This document shows positions 186-63,850 of a stretch of DNA of 64,000 bases, in pieces. Location: positions 61,747,576 through 61,811,575 of the forward strand of contig NC_134830.1 of NCBI RefSeq assembly GCF_004210375.1, given 5' to 3'. Origin of the DNA: Tachypleus tridentatus. Lineage: Eukaryota; Arthropoda; Merostomata; Xiphosura; Limulidae. A model generated the notes under the pieces. The model did not search any database. It was not told the origin of the DNA and was given only the letters and a program-made list of their open reading frames with translations. A program made the position numbers and the translations under genes. The stretch's first letter is position 1, and each line of letters opens with the position of its first letter.

Positions 186-278
186 TTCTAGAAAATTCTG
201 AAAGGTTCTAGATAATTATCTTGAGTCCTAGAACATTCTAGAAAATTCTTGAAAGTCTTTGTAAGTTCAAAAAAATTC
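186..278 (-). promoter_or_regulatory. Heat-shock element array, 19 pentamers in register
   Basis: From 186 the sequence runs as alternating TTC and GAA triplets every five bases to 278. Eleven of 19 units are perfect. Positions 231-253 read GAA-TTC-GAA-TTC-GAA with two-base spacers, an uninterrupted five-unit consensus. TTC-GAA-TTC at 186-198 is a second perfect trimer. HSF trimers are known to bind inverted nGAAn repeats of this form. The array sits just upstream of a TATA box and start codon, the arrangement of classical Hsp promoters. The register is preserved in the second copy at 11607-11699. Confidence 0.72.
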
Positions 279-2467: not shown

Positions 2468-3227
2468 GAGTATTCGTAAATTTTCTACGTTTGAAATAAA
2501 TCAAAACGGAAAGAGATACCACATGGATAGTAAAATATTAATGAATTAGCAATTTACTTTGGTATAACGTTTCGAAAATTTGAAATAGAAGTGTTATATT
2601 TTCTAGGTACGACAATAACACTAGATATGACTTTGTGTGACTGAACCTTAACAATCATAAATATGTGTGTGTGTATATATATGTGCGGAAATATAGCAAT
2701 GTTTTACGAAATAATCAAATATCAAAAATCATTAGTATTTCACAAGTGAGGATATAATGCCTAAAATAATGTAGAACGAAATATATTATACTCTTTATTC
2801 ATTAAAAAAACTTCAAGTATCAGTTATTAAGGTTAAAAGTTAATGCGAGAAATAATATAGATTGCAATTTATTTAACACCAAATATAAAGCGTCTAAAAT
2901 CTAATTTCTTGAATTATTTCATTTTTTGGAAGAATTGAGTACATTTAAGTCCAATATTAACAATAAAAATGATTCATTCAGAATAATTAATACTAGAATG
3001 GGATCTTATACATTATGATCATTATATAACACCAGTTGCTTTAAAAATTAAGATGATATATTTAGACAGATAAACACATAAATGGAAAAAACGTATTTTG
3101 GTTAAAGGGGTTTACACGTAAGAGTTAATTTAGTCTATAGTAGTTATATTTCGTACAATGTTGACAACAGAAAACTTGCAGGAAATAAGGTAAGAAATGT
3201 ATTTTAGTGTAATGTTTTCTTGATTGT
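2468..3227. other. AT-rich non-coding with a short GT/AT microsatellite
   Basis: Contains a TGTGTGTGTATATATATG tract near 2664-2681. Otherwise nothing recognised. Confidence 0.5.
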
Positions 3228-3473
3228 TTTTTTTTCGAATTTCGTGCAAAGCTACACAAGGGTTATCTGCGCTAGCCGTCCCTAATTTAGTAGTGTAAGA
3301 CTAGAGGGTCGTCAACTCTTGGGCTGTTGTTTTACCAACGAATAGTGCATTGACCGTCACATTATAACGCCCCCACGGTTAAAAGGGCGAACATGTTTGG
3401 TGTAACAGGGATTCGAACCCACTGCCCTCGGCTACGACTCAAGTGTTTTAACCACCTGGCCGTGGCAGGCAGC
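3228..3473 (-). repeat. SINE family A, minus
   Basis: tRNA-derived SINE: the B-box complement GGGATTCGAACCC near 3409 and head complement ACCTGGCCGTGGC at the right end, body and tail to the left. Confidence 0.85.
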
Positions 3474-3627
3474 TTAAGTCTTGAACATTCAGTATTAAGA
3501 TAAAGCAGTGGCTACTATTCATTCTAATGGTTGATAGATTAAAGTTATTTAGAGACACATGTAGTAACTAGAAGTCAATACTAAACTAATGTATGATGAT
3601 TTGTTAAATATATAACAAAACAGGACT

Positions 3628-3896
3628 GTTTGTTTGAATTTTACACAAAGCTATACGAGAGCTATCTGCGCTAGCCGTCCCTAATTTAGCAGTATAAAAG
3701 TAGAAGGAAGGTAACTAGTAACCACCACCCACCGCCAATCCTTAGGCTACTCTTTTAGTAACAAATAGTAGGATTAACCGTCGTATTATAACGCCCTTCA
3801 TGGTTGAAAGAGCGAGCATGTTTGATGTGACGACGATTCGAGTCCGCGACCCTCAGATTGTGAGTCAAGCGCTCTAACGACCTGGCCATGTCAGGT
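3628..3896 (-). repeat. SINE family A, minus, near full length
   Basis: Tail TTTGTTTG at left, body CTATCTGCGCTAGCCGTCCC, head complement ACCTGGCCATGTC at right. Confidence 0.88.
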
Positions 3897-4029
3897 CAAC
3901 AAATTAAGAAGGACGAGCGTAGCCAGTGTATAACTTAGTTGTTTAACAATTTTGGTGAAAGTACATAATTAATTATTTCTGATTCTGTGTTGTATGACCT
4001 CAGGTGGAACAGTGATAAGTCTAAAATTC

Positions 4030-4076
4030 CCCACGGTGGGCACAGCAGACAGCCCTATGTGATTTTGTTACGAAAC
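4030..4076 (+). repeat. SINE family C fragment
   Basis: CACGGTGGGCACAGCAGACAGCCC matches the T-arm and tail junction of family C. Degenerate. Confidence 0.35.
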
Positions 4077-4077
4077 T

Positions 4078-4240
4078 AACAAACTGTGTTGTAAACAAAC
4101 AGAAACTTCTCAACAGTTTTCTCACCATTACTATTATTAAATATTTTCGTTGGAGACAGATAATTCATTGAATAAACTTCACACTAAGTCTCAAGTTATA
4201 CATTCAATCAAAATTATTCTGTTAATTCGCTTCATTTCAT
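4078..4240 (+). repeat. Diverged duplicate, copy 1 (partner 6488-6645)
   Basis: Shares an ordered series of blocks with 6488-6645: ACAAACAGAAA, TTACTAT, TTTTxGTTGGA and AATAAACTT, then TTxTGTTAATT. This is an old duplication of about 160 bp and non-coding. Confidence 0.6.
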
Positions 4241-6017
4241 TTAAACAGAGACTAAAACGAAAGAAGTTCGGTGTTAAAAGTACATCCGTTTGAGAAAGCT
4301 AGCCAAACTACAAATATGTCTGTTTCTTACTACTTTCACTTAAACTGAATTTAACTTCCGTTACTAAGTGAATTAACTTACAAACATTAGAAACGTCGAA
4401 ATTCTTCAGAAATGTTTTTTATTGCCGCAACTTTATAGTTAATCCAATTAAGTTTTGCACCCTGCAATCACATGCTTTAATTAGTTATAGTCTAACGACA
4501 GCTCGAAATGGAATAACATATCTATTATTAAAGTTTCAACAAATGATCTATTGTGTTCCATACAATAGAACCAAGAATATTTTAACGTAGCCTATGGTAT
4601 TGGAAGATAATTGGATTGATGTTAGAAGCAAGACACACCAGAATTGAAAGTCGTTAAGTTACAAGAGACTTACGATCTCTTGGGAACATCTACCATCCAT
4701 CATGAAAATTGTCTCAAACGGTTCCCTTTAGATATTCGCATCAGTCACAAAATAAGCCTTACCTCACTCAAGAAAACACCAATTCTCACGTTTCCTACTT
4801 ATTTACATCATTACTAAGTTAAATGTCGTAAGTGAATGCAATTCAGCATGTCTCACATGAATATTTCATAATCTTAAAGCACTTGAGATACTGTACGGTC
4901 ACAAACGAGAGCATCCAAGTTATCCTGTCTTTAAGATGGTTCTCTACTCTTGTCAGCTGGATAGTAACAAGTTGAACTGTGTGCGTAATGAGCATATCAT
5001 TATTTTTAGGTTTATATTTAACCAAATAAAGAATTAATCTAAAAAATCAAACTACATCGAATATGATATGCCAGGGCTACGAAATTTCATTACTACCGTG
5101 AACCAATCGTGTTATAATGATTATAACATAATTAGTTTTGGATTTGAATTTGGATTTTTCAACTTGAAAGGTCAATTAGGGATACACATGGTCTATTTAA
5201 CTGGTCAGAGAAGAGATGCCAAGTACAGACATAGTCATCTTTAACGTGGAACCATTGACTAGAAGTACAGCAACTAGTCATCAGCACCCGATGCATACAT
5301 GTATATTTTTAACCAAAACTGGTATCAGCTGTTTCTTATAATGCGTTCACAATTGAGACTGCGCCTCGTGTTCGACAACATGTTGTAGGCACGAGCGTTG
5401 GAACTTCTAATCAACAGCCTTGCACACCTAGCTTACGACCTTGCTCGACCTACTTTGAATTTATACAGACACAAGTTATGTTTTTGCTTTATCATATACT
5501 TATATATTCAGATGTTTGCATGGAACGAGGCCTGCGACACCAGTTATATAGACCACTATTAAGAAATGTTTTTATGACATTATTATTGTTAGATTCCTAA
5601 GAATTCATTCTTACATTGTACAAACTGTCTTTGACTAAACGTTTTTGTATATACTAGCAGGTACAGCCAGAAACAAAAGATGTTTCAACACAATTTTCAA
5701 ACGTAATAACTTTGTTTCTACATCAAATTCTATGTTTCATTTTAGCCAGTCTCTCTGTTGCTTTCCTTTGGATAACACATCTTAGCTTAAACCCAATTTT
5801 TAGATGAAGTTTACGAACCTACGAAATGTGTTTATCAATTAATGTACAGTTTCTGTATTTTCTGTTGGATTAATACACTCATTAAATCTTCCTGATAAAT
5901 TACACGACAGAAATGAAAGATTTGAAAATCTAGGTATTTAGGAAGTAAGCTCAAGACTAAAGAAAAGTAATGGTTTATCTGTATTGACTGTTATGTACAG
6001 CTCTCATATTATTAGTT
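4241..6017. other. Non-coding stretch, nothing recognised
   Basis: No credible exon found. 5330-5460 is slightly GC-richer, but both strands are broken by stops. Confidence 0.45.
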
Positions 6018-8945: not shown

Positions 8946-9338
8946 TAAATTTTTTTTATACCAAAGAGACTTTCTCAAATAAACTTGTTTAAAGCTCCAT
9001 TGGCGAACATTTCTTACCAGTCCGACTCATATTTCAGATCTGCTTCTTTTTTCGCTTTATTGTATTTAAGTTGAATAAGATATATGAAAACCATGAGTGC
9101 CCCGGGCGCTGACCTAAACTACCGTCATGAATCATCTTTTTCTCTACATTTGTCTTATCTGAAGCAAGAATATTTGATGGTACTCATAACTGTTAGTTTT
9201 TACTCTACCATAATCAATATAAAACACATTTTAATTTATATTTTAATTTTTTTTTATTTTTGTTATAGTTACATAAAAATTATTCTAGCTTCTGAAAACG
9301 CAAACGTAATATAATATCAAAACTTCATTACCAAGAGG
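8946..9338. other. AT-rich non-coding, nothing recognised
   Basis: A 76-codon open frame from 9084 has no recognisable motif and low-complexity AT codons. I do not call it. Confidence 0.45.
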
Positions 9339-9618
9339 GCCCGGCATGGCCAGGTGGTTCAGTAACTCGAATCGTAATCTGAGTGAGGGTCGGGTGTTCG
9401 AATGCTCGTCGTGTCAAACGTACTTGACCCTTTAAGCCGTGGGGACGTTATAATGTTTCAGTCAATCCTACTATTCGTTGGTAAAAGAGTAACCCAAGAG
9501 TTAACAGTAGGTGGTGATGATTAGCTGCCTTCCCTCTAGACTTACACTGCTAAATTAGGGACGGCTAGCGCAAATAGCGCTCGTGTAGCTTTGCGCGAAA
9601 TTCGAAACAAACAAACAA
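9339..9618 (+). repeat. SINE family A, plus, full length
   Basis: Head GGCCCGGCATGGCCAGGTGG through tail CGAAACAAACAAACAA. Confidence 0.9.
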
Positions 9619-10446
9619 TCATTGCCAAGAGAGAAAACTTGAATTCTGATAACTGTCTTTACTAAAGAATACAGTAACATTCTCACTCGAAAATTTGTTG
9701 ATATTCTATTAAAAACTAGCTGGAGTACCTGTCCAGTGGACGGAAGTTATGGAAATTTATGATTAATAGAAGAATACCTTAGAAAGTTGCTTTCTTTAAA
9801 TGCAATTATAATAAAAAAACAAAAAAAACGCTCACAACAACTTCAAAACACAAAATGTGAAACTGAATATTTGTGTGTATATCTCGACGAATCCAATGAA
9901 CCTCCATATCAAATATAGTGAAGGTTCATCCGCAGGAGGTGAAGCAGTGGGAAAAAAACACCCATAAATACCGCAAAACGAAAATCTGTAGATATGCCCG
10001 TATAGATGTAATAAACCTCCATAACGATTTTGGTGGAGAAACATCCATATCCTGCGAAGTAGTTCCACTGACATACAACAGATGGTACTATTATATTTAT
10101 GTAGATCTAAAAAAATTTTGATCTTTCACTAAAAATAATAAATTTTTAATAATGTTAAAAAATTATAGCTATTATTGTTTAACATACTTGATAACACTAT
10201 GTAATACAAATTTTGTTCCTGGATAGTATGTGTAATTTCTTAATTGCTTATGTTGTAAAAGTACAGAAAATGGCCATTATTCCCTTCAAACTTTGCTTTT
10301 GTGACATGGATAATGAAATTTAGATATTAACCTATTTTCTTTGTAAAAACGGACAAATTTGAACATTTTCATTCACATAAGGTCTGAATAAAACAACATA
10401 TGAATCAAGATTTACATGTATTTACACTAAAGTTATACAAAAATGT
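9619..10446. other. Non-coding, nothing recognised
   Basis: Overlapping open frames on both strands at 9832-10121 have no family resemblance I can name. Confidence 0.45.
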
Positions 10447-11524
10447 TTAGAAGTGAGTTGTTTTTCGAAATTTGCAACTGTAATGTAAATCACTTTCACG
10501 TACCAGCCCCCAAATATAGTATCTCGTCATGTTTCGTTATACGTTCCATGGTAGTGGCGTTCAAAATCCAGTATATCTTTGTGGAAGCGTTCGCCTTGCT
10601 CCTCTGAGTATGCTCCCATTTTCTCTTTGAATTTATCAAGATGAGCGTCAAGGATATGGACTTTCAGGGACATCCTGCAGCCCATTTTGCCGTAGTTCTT
10701 CACCAGAGCCTCAACCAGTTCCACATAATTTTCGGCCTTGTGATTGCCCAATAAGCCCCGAACCACTGCGACAAAACTGCCCCAAGCTTTTTCCATTCCG
10801 ACTGAGCTTCTTGGGAAATTTTGTGCACTCCAGAATTGTTTTTTATTTGTGGTACAACCAAGACACCAGCTTTGACCTTTGCCTCAGACAGCTTGGGGAA
10901 GAAGTCTCGAAGGTACTTGAAGTCTGCAGACTCATTATCAAGAGCTGTGGCAAATTGTTTCATAAGACACAATTTTATTTGTAATGATGGGAACAACACC
11001 TTTTGGATGTCCACTAGTGACTCACACTTGACATTGTGTCTCCCCACAGATAACTCGGTCCGTTGTGGCCAGTGGTTCCTGTTGTAGTGCACTGCGGTGT
11101 TTCTGTTGTTCCATTGGTAAAAATAACAGAAAACTTAGTAAAGCCTCCTTGAAGACCCATCAAGAATGCCACCATTCTGAAGTCTCCAATAACCTCCCAG
11201 CCATACTGTTGTATTCCTTATTGAGGTGCACCGAAAAATATTTAAATTTTAAAAGGTCTAAAATTTGTATAATATAAAATCTTACTATTAAAGCAAGAAA
11301 AAATTGTGCGTCTTACCTTCTAGAGGTTTTTTGCAGTGCTCGTAGGTAAAATGAGATGCCCAGGGTTTGTCTTGATCTCCGACAGGTATGTCGAAATATA
11401 CCTTTTAGGCTTCACACATTTTAGCAGAAGCTGTCACAGAGTGCCTTTTTGCTCTTGTCCTGATAAATTGGCCACATACATAGCAGAATGCATCTAGAGA
11501 ATGCTTGTAGCTTATTGATGCCAT
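10447..11524 (-). pseudogene. Repetitive CYVCGQF-type family pseudogene
   Basis: Minus strand. Exon 1 (11524-11317) starts MASISYKHSLDAFCYVCGQF, later has Asp-Gln-Asp-Lys-Pro-Trp-Ala and Cys-Glu-His-Cys-Lys, and ends at a GTAAG donor. An in-frame TAA follows Lys-Met-Cys-Glu-Ala. The body resumes near 11215 with a Trp-Glu-Val-Ile-Gly-Asp-Phe-Arg stretch and FLMGLQGGFTKF. Frameshifts then lead to IKLCLMKQF, WGSFVAVVRGLLGNHKAENY, LDKFKEKMGAYSEEQGERFH and, after another shift, YIWGLVRESD before TAA at 10449-10447. Motif order fits the uncharacterised family I recall. The central segment, present at 33.0-33.7 kb, is missing between 11316 and 11215. The family's function is unknown to me; spread in multiple copies with a promoter suggests mobility. 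Stop plus several frameshifts make this copy dead. Confidence 0.75.
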
Positions 11525-11583
11525 CAGACCTTGTATTCACTTAGGCAATTAGAACTAAACTGAAGTGGTGAGTGGTGAGCCCC

Positions 11584-11594
11584 TATATATATAT
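11584..11594 (-). promoter_or_regulatory. TATA box of the 11.5-kb family copy
   Basis: ATATATATATA about 60 bases upstream of the ATG at 11524, homologous in position to 165-172. Confidence 0.5.
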
Positions 11595-11606
11595 TACTAT
11601 GGAAAG

Positions 11607-11699
11607 TTCTGGAAAATTCTAAAAGGTTCTTGAAAATACTCGTAAGTTTTACAACATACTAGAAAGTTTTTGAAAATTCTTGTAAGTTCGAAAAAATTC
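11607..11699 (-). promoter_or_regulatory. Heat-shock element array, second copy
   Basis: Same 93 bp and same 19 alternating TTC/GAA positions as 186-278, ten of them perfect. TTC-GAA-TTC occurs at 11607-11619 and GAA-TTC at 11672-11679. Mutations relative to the edge copy are substitutions that do not disturb the five-base register. A distal three-unit site, GAA-TA-TTC-TA-GAA, lies at 11732-11744. Confidence 0.68.
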
Positions 11700-11927
11700 T
11701 CCATCAACTACTCAGCACTGAATCTACGTGGAATATTCTAGAAAATGGGTAAATTTGAAAATTTCATTACCCAGGCCACAAAAGCAAAGATTGAAGAGAA
11801 AAATAGATCCTTTCCATTTGCTTTAGGCATAAGCAATTTAGAAATAAAACTTTCTGCCCAGGAACAAGAAAAAGTAAAAAATTTTGTTACATAATGTAAT
11901 CATTCAAAAGAATGATTTATATATTTT

Positions 11928-12779: not shown

Positions 12780-13048
12780 GGCCCGGCATGGCCAGATGAG
12801 TTAAGGCGTGCGAGTAGTAATCTGAGGGTCGCGGGTTCGCATTCCTGTCGCACCAAACATGCTCGCCCTTTCAGTTGTGGGAGCGTTATAAGTGACTCTC
12901 AATACCACTATTTATTGGTAAAAGAGTATCTCAAGAGTTGGCGGTGGGTGATGATGACTAGCTGCCTTCCCTCTAGTCTTACACTGCTAAGTTAGGGACG
13001 GCTAGCACAGATAGACCTCGAATATCTTTGCGCGAAATTAAAAAAACA
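12780..13048 (+). repeat. SINE family A, plus
   Basis: Head GGCCCGGCATGGCCAGATGA, body TGACTAGCTGCCTTCCCTCT and A-rich end. Confidence 0.9.
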
Positions 13049-13270
13049 CCTTATTTATTCTTCTCCTGGATTCAGTCCTAATGAAATAGATCATCTTCAC
13101 TATTTTTCGTTTTCGTCACTCTGAAGAAAGGACTAACTCAATCATTTCCTGCTTGTACCTTTTCATACTGTACCGTTCTTGCCGTATTTTCATCTGTAGA
13201 ACTCAATTTTCTATTTTTCTATCGATGTTTTGTTTCTTCAACAGCCTCTCCGTTTCTTTTCCTCATTGTT

Positions 13271-25039: not shown

Positions 25040-25303
25040 ATGTACCGGTGTAATTCTTCAATGTATTGATCGATAAGAAGGTGTTCTGCATTACTTTCTT
25101 TATTTCAAATCTTGAAGTACTGCCAGTCTCTTAGTACTAGTCGAAAACTTTAACAAAAGCTCATAATATGCATTTGAAAGATCAATCTAACTGACGTCAG
25201 CAGCTGCCAGACCACATTGCATCCTTCATATTAATTTGCCTTTGATGAGTTATTTCTCATGTGTGATAATAGTATCCATACTTACCATTGATACTTAGTC
25301 TGT

Positions 25304-25568
25304 TTTAGAATTTCGCGCAAAGCTACTTGAAAGCTATCTGGGCTAGCCGTCCCTAATTTAGCAATATAAGACTAGAGGGAAGGCAGCTAGTCATCACCAT
25401 CCACCGCCAACTCCTGGGCTACTCTTTTACCAACGAATAGTGGGATTGATCGTCACATTATAACGCTCCCATAGCTGAAAGGGCGAGCATGTTTGGTGCG
25501 ACCGGGATTCGAACCCGTGACTCTCATATTACGATTCGAACGCCTTAACCCACCTGGCCATGCCGGAC
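25304..25568 (-). repeat. SINE family A, minus, full length
   Basis: AGAATTTCGCGCAAAGCTAC through ACCTGGCCATGCCGGAC. Confidence 0.9.
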
Positions 25569-26309
25569 CTGATACTTAGTCTTTGCAGACTTTTTCTATT
25601 TAAGCTTCTACTTTATTTTCAATATATACTTTACACCTAATGGAAACATGCAAGTTACATTTTCCGTAAAGGAAAAGTCATATTTTTCCCGCGTGCTCTC
25701 GTGTGGTTTGGTTTATCAAGAACACATTGGATTATCTGCAGCAAGTTTATACACAAACAAATAAGTTTGATTATCTGCTAACCTTCTATCTTTTATTTCA
25801 CCAACTTTTAGTATACAACTTTCCACATCTCAAAAGGAATTTTAAATGAGATTTTCTGTTTTATTTCTCTTCGAAAAGAATATACAGATGATACCAATAT
25901 AAAAATAAAATTCGCTGTCGAAACATTTTCTCTGAATATCATTATTTTGCAGGATTGTTTTCGATTAATATGTTTCCGTCTCCTTTTTTTGTTCTGTTCC
26001 AAAATAAACAAGTATATTTTCTGGATTTTTTAATGATTTAAAATGACTTGGATTGCAAGATATAATCGCATCTTATTTATACTTTTTGATGTTGCAAAGT
26101 AAGTCACGTGACCTATGTACAAGTTTAAAATTACCACGTGAACGTTTTAGAAAACGCCACCTCACAATTTTTGTATAAGTATTCGCCAGACATTCATCTT
26201 TATTTTATAATACATTATCCTTCTTATCTTTAATTATTTTCAAGGATTCCCGAATACTACTGACCATAATACCTTTTGGTTGAGTCTATATTATACTTCT
26301 TTTCCTACA
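25569..26309. other. AT-rich non-coding, nothing recognised
   Basis: No conserved frame. The ACGTG motifs at about 26106 and 26135 are too short to call. Confidence 0.45.
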
Positions 26310-27955: not shown

Positions 27956-28287
27956 CGAAGAAAGCCTTCAGTAGTAGTTTTTACAAGCGTCATTGTCGTT
28001 TTCGACATATATGCTGTACAGCTTTAAACGAATTTTTCTTTTCAAATCACAGTAGAATTAAACAGGCTAGTTTATGATAAATAATAAATTATTAAAAATG
28101 TATTAATTAATATTTTTAGCCGTGTTCAGTTTTATTTATTATAGACATATTGTTTAAAAGTTCCACTTTATAGCACGGAAACAAGTAGAAAGGGTGGAGT
28201 TCAAAATGTTGATTAGATTAGCATTTTAAAATTAGAAACATGCACATTGATTTTGAGTTAAATTTTTCATTACTGTGTTAAGGTTTC

Positions 28288-32838: not shown

Positions 32839-33690
32839 CTAATACTTTTTTTTATTACCGAGAAAGTTTGCCATCACCGCCACAAATGAAAGCCATGCAG
32901 TCCTTTCCTTGTCGTTCATCTTTCTGGCAAATTCTTGATCACGCACAAGTGCACGAATCTGTGGTCCATCAAAACACCTGTCTTGATCTTCTCGAAGGAC
33001 AAACCAGGGAGCACAGAAAATATGTGTTGGAAGCATTCACCGTCAGTATTCAACGCCTTCATAAACTTTATATGCAAAAACGGCTCGTTTGGGTTGAGAA
33101 AATATTTTACACAATATCCAGCATGATATGGAGAGGAGGAAATATGATCTTTTCCTCAAATGACAGACAATTGGATCGTTGACAATATTTGGCATACCTG
33201 CCTTCAGAGTCTCACGTATGGGCCACTCCTTCTGGTTCCAGTGCTTTTCTCGAGCTCGGCTGTCCCACATGCAAAGATAGCAGGGGTACTTTGTAAATCC
33301 TCTTTGTTGACCTAGGAGGAAAGTAACCATTTTGAGGTCCACACAAATTGTCCAGTTGTGCTCGTGGTATTTTAGTAGGTCAGTCACAGTCTTAATGACA
33401 TTATATTCCTCTCGTAAATACACAGAGTGTCCAATTGGAACAGCTGCATAGACATTGTCATTATGAAGTAGAACGCACTTCAAACTTTGCTTAGAACAAT
33501 CTAGAAATAATCGCCAGTCATTTGGATGGTATACTGGCATCCCTAATTCCTGGAGAAGACCTGAGATATTATGACAATAAACAAACATATTCTCCTCTGT
33601 AAAATATGGCACAAAAGCCTGCTCCCGATTTCGGAAGTATGACACTGCAAAGAATGGCGGCTCGTTATATCCCCTGACAAACAGCACAAA
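32839..33690 (-). pseudogene. Repetitive CYVCGQF-type family pseudogene, central to C-terminal part
   Basis: Minus strand. The longest open part (33687-33043) carries SYFRNREQAFVPYFTEEN, then VYCHNISGLLQELGMP, SLKCVLLHNDN, ICVDLKMVTFLLGQQRGFTK and YPCYLCMWDSRAREKHW, the signature I associate with this family. A frameshift follows near 33165. The IIFPPLHI segment is interrupted at about 33074-33110 by a piece of the fold-back element seen at 966-1123. After it come KFMKALNTDGECF, PGLSFEKIKTGV and, after a one-base shift at a T run, DGPQIRALVRDQEF, then WLSFVAVMANFLGN to TAG at 32839. The N-terminal CYVCGQF exon and heat-shock promoter are absent. The role of the Cys-x-x-Cys in YPCYLCMW may be metal binding (inference). 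Confidence 0.75.
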
Positions 33691-35895: not shown

Positions 35896-37041
35896 ATGAG
35901 CGAGTTTCAGTCAACAAATAGTTCTTCTGTCGAGACTCCTGTAGCTCGGAATGGTACAACAGAAATATCTGGAGAAACGAACAGCTCCACCCATGTTATT
36001 GTGGTATCAATGGTACTAGGTTTACTGATTCTGGCAACTGTAATTGGAAACCTATTCGTAATTGCCGCTATATTGTTGGAGAGACATCTTAGGTCCACCG
36101 GTAACTACTTAGTGTTGTCATTGGCTGTCGCTGACCTCATGGTGGCATGTCTGGTCATGCCTTTGAGTGCTGTGTACGAGGTTACTCACGAATGGGTTTT
36201 GGGTCCGGTGTTATGCGAAGCATGGACATCTTGTGACGTACTCTGCTGTACAGCTTCCATTCTTCACTTACTTGCCATTGCTGTCGACAGATATTGGGCC
36301 GTTACCAGAGTAGACTACGTCCGCCAAAGAAGCTCGAACCGAATAGGCCTGATGATATTTCTAGTATGGGGAGTGGCCGTTATTGTATCAGTAGCGCCTG
36401 TTCTGGGGTGGAAAGACGTGGACTTCCTTAAACGAGTACAAGAGGAGAGAAGGTGTCTTGTCAGTCAGGATCTGGCTTACCAAATATTTGCTACATGTTC
36501 GAGTTTCTATATGCCTCTCATAATCATTTTGTTTCTGTACTGGAAGATATTTCAAGTAGCGAGGAAACGGATTCGACATAAACCTGGAGCCAAAGCGCTT
36601 CTCATTGTTCGAAAAACCACAACCAGCACCACAGACCCTTCAGTTGTCGTATCTGTTTCTGGAGGTGATGAAGAAAATCCCAATGGTGTAAGTGCGGCGC
36701 ATAGTGGGATAAATAAGCTTGTAGCACTTGCGAAAAGAGACAAAAATCGAAGTCGAGAAACCTTGGAGACGAGACGCGAGCGAAAAGCTGCCAAAACATT
36801 GGCAATCATCACTGGCGTTTTTGTCATCTGTTGGCTGCCATTCTTCGTGATGGCGGTTGTAATGCCAATGTGTAGTTCCTGTGAACCTGATAAAATATTC
36901 TTCAGTTTCCTCTTGTGGTTAGGCTATATCAACTCTATGTTAAATCCAATCATTTACACTATATTCAGCCCTGATTTTCGTGGTGCTTTCCGACGAATTC
37001 TTTGTGGAGAAGATCTTTCACCGACTCCAAGGCCCACTTAA
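35896..37041 (+). CDS. 5-HT1-type serotonin receptor (class A GPCR)
   Basis: A 381-residue rhodopsin-class receptor in the plasma membrane, complete in one exon. Three N-glycosylation sequons (Asn8, Asn19, Asn29) precede seven membrane segments, with Asn52 in TM1 and Asp80 in TM2. Asp114 in TM3 is the amine-binding position, Cys107 and Cys187 form the usual disulfide, and DRY is at 131-133. Trp158 is in TM4, Pro207 in TM5, Cys-Trp-Leu-Pro at 312-315 with Phe316-Phe317 in TM6, and Trp341, Tyr344 and NPIIY (350-354) in TM7. CCTASILHLLAIAVDRYWAV, VLGWKD and CLVSQDLAYQIFATC are typical of arthropod 5-HT1 receptors. A long third loop and short tail with Cys370 suit Gi/o coupling and lower cAMP (family knowledge). 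The first ATG after the splice acceptor is taken as start. Octopamine or 5-HT7 identity is less likely. An intact frame argues against a retrocopy. The final codons overlap a 74-bp tandem array. Confidence 0.93.
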   Translation: MSEFQSTNSSSVETPVARNGTTEISGETNSSTHVIVVSMVLGLLILATVIGNLFVIAAILLERHLRSTGNYLVLSLAVADLMVACLVMPLSAVYEVTHEWVLGPVLCEAWTSCDVLCCTASILHLLAIAVDRYWAVTRVDYVRQRSSNRIGLMIFLVWGVAVIVSVAPVLGWKDVDFLKRVQEERRCLVSQDLAYQIFATCSSFYMPLIIILFLYWKIFQVARKRIRHKPGAKALLIVRKTTTSTTDPSVVVSVSGGDEENPNGVSAAHSGINKLVALAKRDKNRSRETLETRRERKAAKTLAIITGVFVICWLPFFVMAVVMPMCSSCEPDKIFFSFLLWLGYINSMLNPIIYTIFSPDFRGAFRRILCGEDLSPTPRPT

Positions 37042-37470
37042 TAACAGGTGTAGTCTGAAACACACCAAAATGTTTCATTTATAAAGATCCATAAGTAACA
37101 CCGAGGTCCACTTAATAACAAGTGTAGTCTGGAACACACCAAAATGTTTCGTTTATAAAGATCCATAAGTAACACCGAGGCCCACTTAATAACAAGTGTA
37201 GTCTGGAACACACCAAAATGTTTCGTTTATAAAGATCCATAAGTAACACCGAGGTCCACTTAATAACAAGTGTAGTCTGGAACACACCAAAATGTTTCGT
37301 TTATAAAGATCCATAAGTAACACCGAGGTCCACTTAATAACAAGTGTAGTCTGGAACACATCAAAATGTTTCGTTTATAAAGATCCATAAGTAACACCGA
37401 GGTCCACTTAATAACAAGTGTAGTCTGGAACACACCAAAACGTTACGTTTTTAAAGGTATATATGGAATA
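37027..37470 (+). repeat. 74-bp tandem array starting in the receptor's last codons
   Basis: TAATAACAxGTGTAGTCTGG starts at 37039, 37113, 37187, 37261, 37335 and 37409, an exact 74-bp period. The first unit includes the receptor's final codons and stop; each later unit repeats GGTCCACTTAATAACAAGTG. Units 2-6 are almost identical, so expansion was recent. Confidence 0.92.
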
Positions 37471-56600: not shown

Positions 56601-59600
56601 CAGAAATGTTTAAAATACATGTAACCTGGAACACAATAATGAATGCAGATAGACAGATAAATAGGCAGACTTAAAAGTATTTTGTCCATAAAACGAACAA
56701 CCCTCATCTCCAAGAAAACGTATCAATATTTTGGTTTCGTATCTTTATCAAAGCTTGGCTATAGCTGGAAAGAAGACACGTGGCACATGATCGTACGACG
56801 TTTGTTACAATATAAAATAAAGTGGGCGTTCAACTTAAATACGAGTATTGTTAGAAAACAAGAACAAACAGAAATAGTAATATTACGTTAAAACAAAATA
56901 ATGCCACATATAAAAACTCAGAACTGTTCTATCCAAGGAAGATCTTATACGGTTGGCCGTTTAATTGTTATAAAAAACCTATGTTAAACCTTTTTTATCT
57001 GCAAATAAACAAAACACGTCATATCCAAAGGACTTCATCGTATAGAAAAAGGCCTTAATGAATACAGGGCTGCTTCAATGAAGGTCTTATATAAGCTGCG
57101 AGTGACACGAAAAGGAAACTTAATTGAACAATCTAATCTCCTTCAGCCTTACTCTCGCTAGTTTAATTACAACATTCTGTGTTTCTTATACACACACACA
57201 CACACACGTAGAGGATTATGAATGACAAGACTGACATTTCTGGTCAAATTAAACACGTACTTTGATCAAATGGAACTTAGGACACCAAATATCTCATGAA
57301 ATAGAAGATTGAAACCATGCGGAACATTTACAAATGATTTATAAATTATATATACATCAAGAGATTCAGAGAAGACACTATAAATTCAAGACAAAATATT
57401 TTATATCAAATTATTTCATGGCAGCATCAGTAATGGTTTAGGAGATTGAGTCAGTATTCAAGTTAGAATATTCATAGCACTTTGTAACGGATTTACGAAA
57501 CTTAAAGTTTAAACACGAAACTATTTTTTTTATAACTGATTATAAAAGAAACCCCTATCCTGCCTAACACTACTGTTACTCTATACACTTTCTTCTGTGA
57601 TCAATTCAGCCGACGATCATCAAACAAGAAACTCTCAAAGACAGGAATACTAAACTATAAACAGCAGTCTTTCTCTTAGGTATAAATAAAGTAGCACCTT
57701 ACCTAAAACTTGACTTCTACAATATCTCAGTGAACGCAACGTCTGTGCAATCATGTGCTACACAAAACAGAACAAACAACAATTTAGTACAAATATAACA
57801 TATAACATATGAAAATATATTAACACAAGTGACAGACTCACTAGACGTTTTAAACAACTTAAGTATTATAAGTATTTTATACTTATTTCTCTGTGTGTTT
57901 TTTTCTTAGTTCTTAGTTCAATATTAAATTGTTGTGGAGATAGAAATGAAAGATGTTATGATTATATTCACAGTTGTATGAAAGAGTAAAGTATCGTATT
58001 AAGATGGAAAATAATACGTATATTTTTAACTAATGGAAAAAGTATCACAGTTTACATAAGAGAGAACGTTTTTACTTCTCAAAAATATCATATCTACCTT
58101 TAAATGAAATTCCATTGGTTAGTATGACAATAAACGATCGTGTTTTTACAATAAAAAAAAGGTTATTTAGACCAGTGGAAATATATTGTTGTTAGCCAGT
58201 AGGATCTATTTACACTAGAGGTAACACGTGCGTAACAATTAAGACTGAATACAGTGTTGTCGGTAGTAACACATATGTATAATTAGTATACGAATGTAGC
58301 AACTCAACTAACGCCATCATATTATAACATAGCCCCCACCGCTAGTACAGTGGTAAGTCTCCGGATTTACAACACTAAAATCAGGGGTTCGATTCCCCTC
58401 GGTGGGCTCAGCAGATAGCCCGATGTGGCTTTGCTATAAGAAAACACACACATTATAACATATAATGAGTAAGTTGAGTTCACACTATCTTTGATCATGA
58501 ACCGGTTATTCCATTAAATTAATATTAGATCATAATTCATAAGAATACGTTTCGCATTTACAAAAGTAAACGAGATGTTTCTTTTATATAGATTATACTA
58601 AAAACAGGTCATGGTCTAACTTTTTATTCAATAAAGATTCGAAGTTAATAAAAAATCACCATTTTTTCAAAATTGACGAGTCCTTCTAAATAGGTTTTGT
58701 TGCCTTCGTGTGAAAAAGTCATATCTTTGAGAAGTAAAGGCATGAAAGGTATTATAGGTGGCGCCAACTTCGCAACAATAATCCTGTAGCGTCGATGATT
58801 TCGTGAAGGATCAATCAAAGCTTCGAAATCTGCGTATAATTTTCTCAGCTTCCCGGGTAGCCTTTCCCAAGTTTGGGACATTCGACTTACTGCGACGTTA
58901 CTTAGCCCCATCACGATGGCAAAAAAGGCATTAAGATTCTGGTAGTCTCGGCAACTGTAATATATCAGAAACTCGTACGTGTAATGTAGCAAAATCTCTA
59001 GAAAACAACATGAACGTATTATCAAACAAGCTAATAACCCTTAAAATAACCAATAACTGTAAAATAATATTTGAATATGACTCAAAATAAATATCAGAGG
59101 AATATCCAACAAGTTAATGAACATTAAAGTAACCAATGATTGCAACAAGTCAACAATCGAAACAAAATTAGAATGTTGAATCATTATCCATAAAATCGAA
59201 CAAATTGTTCTACATTCAACTTTTTATTATAAAACGATTTTACCAAGATATTTGAATATTTGAAGCACTTAACCTGCCACATTGTAGTAAAATTATTTTT
59301 GTGGAAACTGAAAGATATTATTGGACAATAAACAGAAAAACAGACATTATGAGTATCTCAGAAATGCCATTGTAAATCGCCTCAGCTCTCATCAGCACCC
59401 TTAGAAAGTTGAATAACTTCAAACATTACTATAGAGGTTTTTATATAAAAAATAAAATAAGTATTCTCGTATCGAATTTTTTCACTTCAAATAATCTCAA
59501 GGGTGTGGAATTAAATATCCACTAATGTTCGATTGATAAAGTTCATTTCTTCTACCAGTTTGTTTGTTTGTTTTTTTAATTTCGCACAAAGCTACACGAG

Positions 59601-63425: not shown

Positions 63426-63850
63426 CCATCAGAGAGTCACTTCTTAACTTGTCATGTTTAGTATAGAACAGACAATTTGCCGTGCCGTTAGAGAATCACT
63501 CCCTAGCCTCCCTTGTTCAGTATACAACACACAATTCGCTGTGCCGTTAGAGAATCACTCCCTAACCTGCCTTGTTCAGTATACAACAGATAATTTGCCG
63601 TTCCGTTAGAGAATCACTCCCTACCCTGCCTTGTTCAGTATACAACACACAATTCGCTGTGCCGTTAGTGAATCACTCCCTAACCTGCCTTATTCAGTAT
63701 AGAACACACAATTCGCTGTGCCGTTAGAGAATCAATCACTCCCTAACCTGCCTTGTTCAGTATACAACAGATAATTCGCCGTGCCGTTAGAGAATCACTC
63801 CCTAACCTGTCATGTTGAGCATAGAACCGCTGTCTTACTGCATTATTAAA
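63426..63850. repeat. 59-bp tandem array, about seven units
   Basis: GTTAGAGAATCACTCCCTAA recurs at 63487, 63546, 63605, 63664 (GTTAGTGAATC) and 63723; the next is at 63786 after a 4-bp ATCA insertion. Each unit ends CAATTCGCTGTGCC. Confidence 0.92.

Follow-up and report, generated by a model that had tools for sequence, protein, structure and literature searches.

The 64,000-nucleotide stretch of Tachypleus tridentatus DNA analyzed here (hereafter, the window) is animal-like, with a G+C content of 27–41% in 2-kb steps. At its left edge lies a truncated copy (copy 1) of a repeated element that carries an array of alternating TTC and GAA triplets of the heat-shock element (HSE) type; a second copy of the same element (copy 2) and a related transposase fragment lie further to the right (Table 1). 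Elsewhere in the window, an uninterrupted 381-aa frame at 35896–37041 (+) encodes a 7TM receptor whose best PDB match is the 5-HT1A receptor (E 5.5e-85), and the 3′ end of this receptor runs into a 74-bp tandem repeat (37030–37456, 5.8 copies, 96% match). A RasGEF domain (Pfam E 7.5e-31) is found in a reading frame at 58645–59025 (−), and a 59-bp tandem repeat occupies 63431–63827 (6.7 copies, 85% match). A repeat of about 280 bp with a tRNA-like head, probably a SINE family, covers 7513 bases of the window in 31 merged intervals at E 1e-10; examples lie at 9338–9613, 12780–13060 and 25303–25569, and ARAGORN reports a tRNA-Ser(cga) at 25494–25569. In addition, a 156-bp inverted repeat at 968–1123, which is 86% identical to its own complement, is foldback or MITE-like, and a 40-bp segment of this repeat reappears (95%) at 33069–33108, inside the transposase fragment.

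Table 1. Positions of the transposon features in the window and of the arrays in viral-labeled contigs that are discussed in the text.
Feature	Position	Strand	Remarks
CYVCGQF exon start, copy 1	1–86	−	Cut by the window edge
Initiator-like site TTCAGTTTAG, copy 1	134–146	−	Putative +1 A at 140
TATA box, copy 1	164–172	−	Starts at 172, 14 bp from the array (186)
HSE-type array, copy 1	181–278	−	19 units from 186, plus a unit at 181 matching at 2/3 bases
Three-unit HSE-like site, copy 1	310–322	−	Two perfect units, third 2/3; out of array register; at inner edge of terminal repeat
5′ terminal inverted repeat, copy 1	321–472	−	84.8% identical to 5′ repeat of copy 2 (151 columns); 73.6% to inverted 3′ repeat of copy 2 (110 columns)
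Copy 2, internally deleted DNA transposon	10195–11896	−	1702 bp; ends CACTATG / CATAATG; end points set by eye from alignments
3′ terminal inverted repeat, copy 2	10195–10345	+	76.0% identical to 5′ repeat over 129 columns, E 1e-19
C-terminal piece, copy 2	10530–10724	−	H(4)H (HILDAH) and EEQGERFHKD, with the presumed last catalytic E
130-aa open stretch of transposase, copy 2	10700–11092	−	Between the second-D and last-E motifs
Remnant like transposase second-D motif, DFRMVAFLMGLQGGFTKF, copy 2	11131–11181	−	D just upstream of 11181
CYVCGQF exon, copy 2	11317–11524	−	One in-frame stop; ends at AAG/GTAAGA, a splice-donor-like site
Initiator-like site TTCAGTTTAG, copy 2	11555–11567	−	Putative +1 A at 11561
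TATA box, copy 2	11580–11593	−	Starts at 11593, 9 bp from the array
HSE-type array, copy 2	11602–11699	−	20 units, 11 perfect; score 33
Three-unit HSE GAAtaTTCtaGAA, copy 2	11731–11743	−	Perfect; homologous to 310–322; out of array register
5′ terminal inverted repeat, copy 2	11739–11896	−	From alignment
Related but distinct transposase fragment, DLKMVTFLLGQQRGFTKYPCYLC	32842–33687	−	Presumed second D and C(2)C (CYLC)
Alternating GAA/TTC units, viral-labeled L004	4004–4051 of L004		
Alternating GAA/TTC units, viral-labeled L003	497–534 of L003		
Alternating GAA/TTC units, viral-labeled L009	1103–1140 of L009		

Two decayed copies of a terminal-inverted-repeat transposon

Copies 1 and 2 share a homologous block of 471 columns (82.0% identity), which reaches from the CYVCGQF exon, across the promoter, to where the terminal repeat ends. 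The inverted repeats at the two ends of copy 2 align with a score of 154.5, compared with a maximum of 48 in 200 shuffles, and the ends of the element had to be set by eye because at both ends this alignment continues for about 60 bases into AT-rich flanking sequence. In copy 1, a single end lies inside the window, reading ...CATTGTG, and the other side runs off the window edge. The triplet TAA stands outside both ends of copy 2 and is a possible 3-bp target duplication, although in a single AT-rich case the likelihood of a chance occurrence is not negligible. A search of the window for more copies of the terminal repeats returned only these two, together with 21–22-base matches at 3079–3099 and 28026–28047. 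The original prediction had assigned the array to a multicopy, possibly mobile gene family, and this part of it is borne out: the family is a multicopy terminal-inverted-repeat DNA transposon, two copies of which are present in the window, the second with an array in the same register. A family of host protein-coding genes was ruled out, since in copy 2 inverted repeats bound the homologous block on either side.

Both copies are decayed remnants, and the coding pieces of copy 2 are distributed over three frames of the minus strand, with stops and frame changes. When these pieces were compared by tblastn with the transposase fragment at 32842–33687, matches were obtained at E 6e-5 to 6e-4; neither an HSE array nor a CYVCGQF exon was found with this fragment. 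Members of the CMCT clade (CACTA/EnSpm-Mirage-Chapaev-Transib) are described as having CA..TG termini, C(2)C and H(3–4)H motifs between the second D and the last E, and a target duplication of 2–5 bp, which is 3 bp in EnSpm (PMC12730594). Copy 2, with its ends placed by eye, has termini of the 5′-CA..TG-3′ form (CACTATG...CATAATG). The other motifs of the clade are split, the second D and CYLC being located in the fragment at 32842–33687 and HILDAH and EEQGERFH in copy 2, such that no single copy is complete, and a first catalytic D was not identified in the transposase remnants. On the basis of these termini and motifs, we infer that the element is CACTA-like and belongs to the CMCT type. We use the term “CACTA-like,” and do not regard the element as a proven EnSpm, because the motifs are drawn from two different degraded copies, a first D was not found, Pfam and PDB are silent and the structure model is poor. 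Specifically, Pfam returned no transposase family for the transposon pieces, the matches obtained being weak and short of the curated cut-offs; a PDB search by sequence with the fragment at 32842–33687 gave two weak, unrelated matches (E 0.15 and 1.3); and the AlphaFold model of a 214-aa frame, made without relatives, had a mean pLDDT of 38.2, which is too poor to support an assignment. A search for relatives of the same fragment in viral contigs returned one stretch that fits the pattern and none that was confirmed. For the C-terminal piece, 67 pattern matches in genome contigs and six in viral contigs likewise yielded none confirmed. Searches by tblastn in phages and plasmids gave no relative. 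These failed searches say little, because the collections consist of viruses, bacteria and archaea.

Register and setting of the HSE-type arrays

In copy 1, TTC and GAA had been predicted to alternate at exact five-base steps in 19 units from 186 to 278. The coordinates are right, and the register (186 + 5i) holds, with 46 of the 57 core bases fitting the TTC/GAA alternation; however, the alternation is not perfect in every unit, because only 11 have a perfect core, the other 8 of the 19 are imperfect and unit 8 (221–225) matches at none of its three bases. The five consecutive perfect units described at 231–253 are present, and because an HSE needs no fewer than three adjoining nGAAn/nTTCn units in alternation, the array is of the HSE type. 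If the partial match (2/3) at 181–183 is counted, where copy 2 has a perfect GAA, the array of copy 1 comprises 20 units.

The alternation score of this array is 28, compared with a maximum of 12 among 40 order-3 Markov sequences modeled on the whole window, and it was reached in none of 5000 local dinucleotide shuffles (shuffle maximum, 12). When the array is read in the nine other phases, the core match falls from 47/60 in register to at most 25/57. A scan of the whole window identified a sole other array of comparable size, the homologous one in copy 2, whose score was also reached in none of 5000 local dinucleotide shuffles (shuffle maximum, 15); with both arrays masked, the highest score remaining in the window is 9. 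The Markov sequences, the local dinucleotide shuffles and the register shifts rule out that the register arose by chance or from low complexity. In each copy, nine of the ten TTC-type units are followed by a T, which is the flanking base preferred by heat-shock factor (HSF). Trimers of HSF bind cooperatively to alternating nGAAn units, and the number of units generally tracks the strength of the response (PMC2871787).

The two copies have a common order of elements, which reads leftwards on the minus strand: terminal repeat, three-unit HSE, long array, TATA box, initiator-like TCAGTT and ATG. The prediction that an HSE-type array occupies a promoter position agrees with this order, since in both copies a TATA box and an initiator-like site follow the array. 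The distances given for copy 1, 14 bp to a TATA box and about 100 bp to an ATG, are also accurate; the ATG is at 86–84, 100 bp from the array and 54 bp after the putative +1, and the ATG of copy 2, at 11524, follows its putative +1 by 37 bp. In both copies the putative +1 A, in a site that reads TTCAGTT, is 32 bases past the first T of the TATA box, and the candidate TCAGTT of copy 1 stands 46 bp from the array. The pairing of a TATA box with an initiator-like site is suggestive only and weak when taken alone, because TATATA-N20–28-TCAGTT has five occurrences within the window on the two strands.

The two arrays align without gaps in the same register, that of copy 2 being longer by one unit. 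Conservation of the register in other copies had been put forward as a test of the original prediction, and the register is indeed kept in the one other copy within the window. It is kept by descent and not by selection after separation, given that the copies differ at 12 of 57 core bases and at 6 of 36 spacer bases (Fisher p 0.79). With gap columns set aside, the arrays differ at 19.4% of sites, and the other blocks at 13.5% (terminal repeat), 16.7% (279–320), 14.6% (promoter/UTR) and 12.8% (coding). Selection on the array after the copies parted was sought in these two copies through core versus spacer differences and block divergence, and none was found. Nothing now appears to preserve the array, because cores and spacers have diverged equally, and such an absence of constraint since separation is as expected for dead insertions.

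The differing sites also bear on the state of the parent array. At all 12 differing core sites, the HSE base is retained in one copy (12 of 13 when the in-register comparison is extended by one unit), compared with only 3–9 of 9–14 differing sites in the nine shifted registers; therefore, the parent array was nearer to perfect than either descendant. Units 4, 16 and 18 are imperfect in both copies, which suggests that the parent array was not fully perfect; unit 8 is also imperfect in both, but with different bases. An equal trace would be left by a tandem repeat of this unit as it decays, and hence the pattern at the 12 sites dates the register, not its function.

Candidate roles of the array

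We consider it probable that the array constitutes the upstream activating region for the promoter of the transposase in a CACTA-like (CMCT-clade) cut-and-paste transposon, and that transposition was ancestrally under HSF or heat control. The promoter anatomy suggests that the ancestral element was activated by heat stress, and it is from this anatomy that we infer HSF binding, heat induction and an effect on transposition. While the ancestral element was active, trimers of HSF would have occupied its approximately 19–20 alternating nTTCn/nGAAn units cooperatively; the HSF-bound array, just upstream of the TATA box and the initiator, would have turned on the transposase under heat or other proteotoxic stress, and expression of the transposase on stress would have led to transposition. 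The present remnants may retain a response to HSF, even though this would yield no functional transposase. By analogy, a heat-driven transposase of this kind appears plausible, because in C. elegans HSF-1 binds the HSEs of Helitron1_CE and drives transposase mRNA on heat shock (PMC6927752, PMC6765114). A stronger version of the model, which we put forward only tentatively, holds that an animal CACTA-like transposase could have come under near-exclusive HSF control via the array of about 20 units, such that heat would cause bursts of transposition and each insertion, alive or dead, would plant a strong HSF site.

A scan of viral-labeled metagenome contigs for at least seven perfect units, which serves as a caution and not as a background rate for animals, detected nine stretches (L001–L009) with alternating GAA/TTC arrays of 7–10 consecutive perfect units, in a setting where HSF is not expected. 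L001 and L006 hold the same array, as do L003 and L009, and the 10-unit array of L004 is located inside mechanical reading frames at 3554–4420 (minus) and, partly, at 3273–4079 (plus). Arrays of at least seven perfect units in such contigs imply that sequence alone is no proof of HSF binding.

In CACTA elements, the motif of the subterminal repeats is as a rule present at both ends. Given that the element is CACTA-like, the strongest rival explanation is that the array represents repeats of this type, namely subterminal transposase-binding iterons resembling the TnpA sites of maize En/Spm, and that its fit to HSF is coincidental. The array is subterminal and palindromic in its 10-bp unit, and subterminal repeats recognized by TnpA are cis-determinants of transposition that are asymmetric in a soybean element (PMC2613891). 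However, an array was sought at the 3′ end of copy 2 and is absent, the best score in 10195–10530 being 3 versus 33 at the 5′ end, and this confinement to the 5′ end favors a promoter over transposase-binding repeats. Moreover, in both copies the array is placed directly upstream of TATA and initiator-like sites, and its TTC-type units carry the flanking T favored by HSF. Iterons of the TnpA type are, in our estimation, an unlikely account of the array.

We also think it improbable that the array represents neutral expansion of a short tandem repeat within the transposon, with no regulatory role and an accidental resemblance to an HSE. TRF gives a 20-bp period in copy 2 (a 10- or 20-bp unit is possible), the unit is AT-rich and easily expanded, and the equal decay of cores and spacers is in keeping with neutrality. 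By contrast, a neutral repeat does not account readily for the place and order of the array upstream of the core promoter in both copies, or for the independent three-unit HSE that lies outside the register and is perfect in copy 2. Retention of the HSE base in one copy at every differing core site also speaks against it, although a decaying perfect repeat gives the same result. The array could be at once a tandem repeat and functional as an HSE array, and it may have originated by expansion.

Relation to known elements and heat-shock promoters

Among the cases in which stress feeds back on genome change, transposons activated by heat are a leading example. In Arabidopsis, heat activation of ONSEN works through the host heat-shock factor. 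The heat activation of ONSEN has been documented (PMC8376061, PMC6927752), and TCN3 of Cryptococcus is also heat-activated and has two putative HSEs in its LTR, for which a route through the host heat-shock factor has been proposed (PMC12810828). ONSEN and TCN3 are LTR retrotransposons, whereas the element described here is a DNA transposon. The tested animal case that we found in the literature is the Helitron of Caenorhabditis (PMC6927752, PMC6765114). As described there, these Helitrons resemble the present element in that they are animal DNA transposons with clustered tandem HSEs, and their decayed copies spread HSEs through the genome. By contrast, Helitron1_CE is a rolling-circle element with a Rep-helicase, the HSF function of which has been assayed, whereas the present element is of the terminal-inverted-repeat, presumed DDE type and is known from its sequence.

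Within the CMCT clade as characterized in the source cited above for its features, the present element has in common the CA..TG termini; candidate further features are the C(2)C and H(3–4)H motifs, seen in separate degraded copies, and the possible 3-bp duplication, as in EnSpm. It differs from the animal CACTA elements described in PMC4298943, which have CCC ends and 2-bp duplications. The array itself resembles Drosophila heat-shock promoters, in which alternating nGAAn/nTTCn units lie close upstream of the transcription start (here, a putative start); however, the HSEs covered in that survey, from eight genes in 13 species, comprise 2–11 units (PMC2871787), compared with 19–20 units in one register here, 11 of which are perfect in each copy.

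No HSE array on a CACTA-like animal transposon, or on any other CMCT-clade member, was found among the literature matches listed, which consisted of titles and the starts of abstracts and came mostly from outside the subscription literature. If the proposed explanation is true, the element would represent a second, unrelated class of animal transposon with an even longer HSF-type array, which would imply that mobile DNA has convergently exploited the heat-shock response, and its insertions would be a source of ready-made heat-inducible promoters scattered across the host genome.
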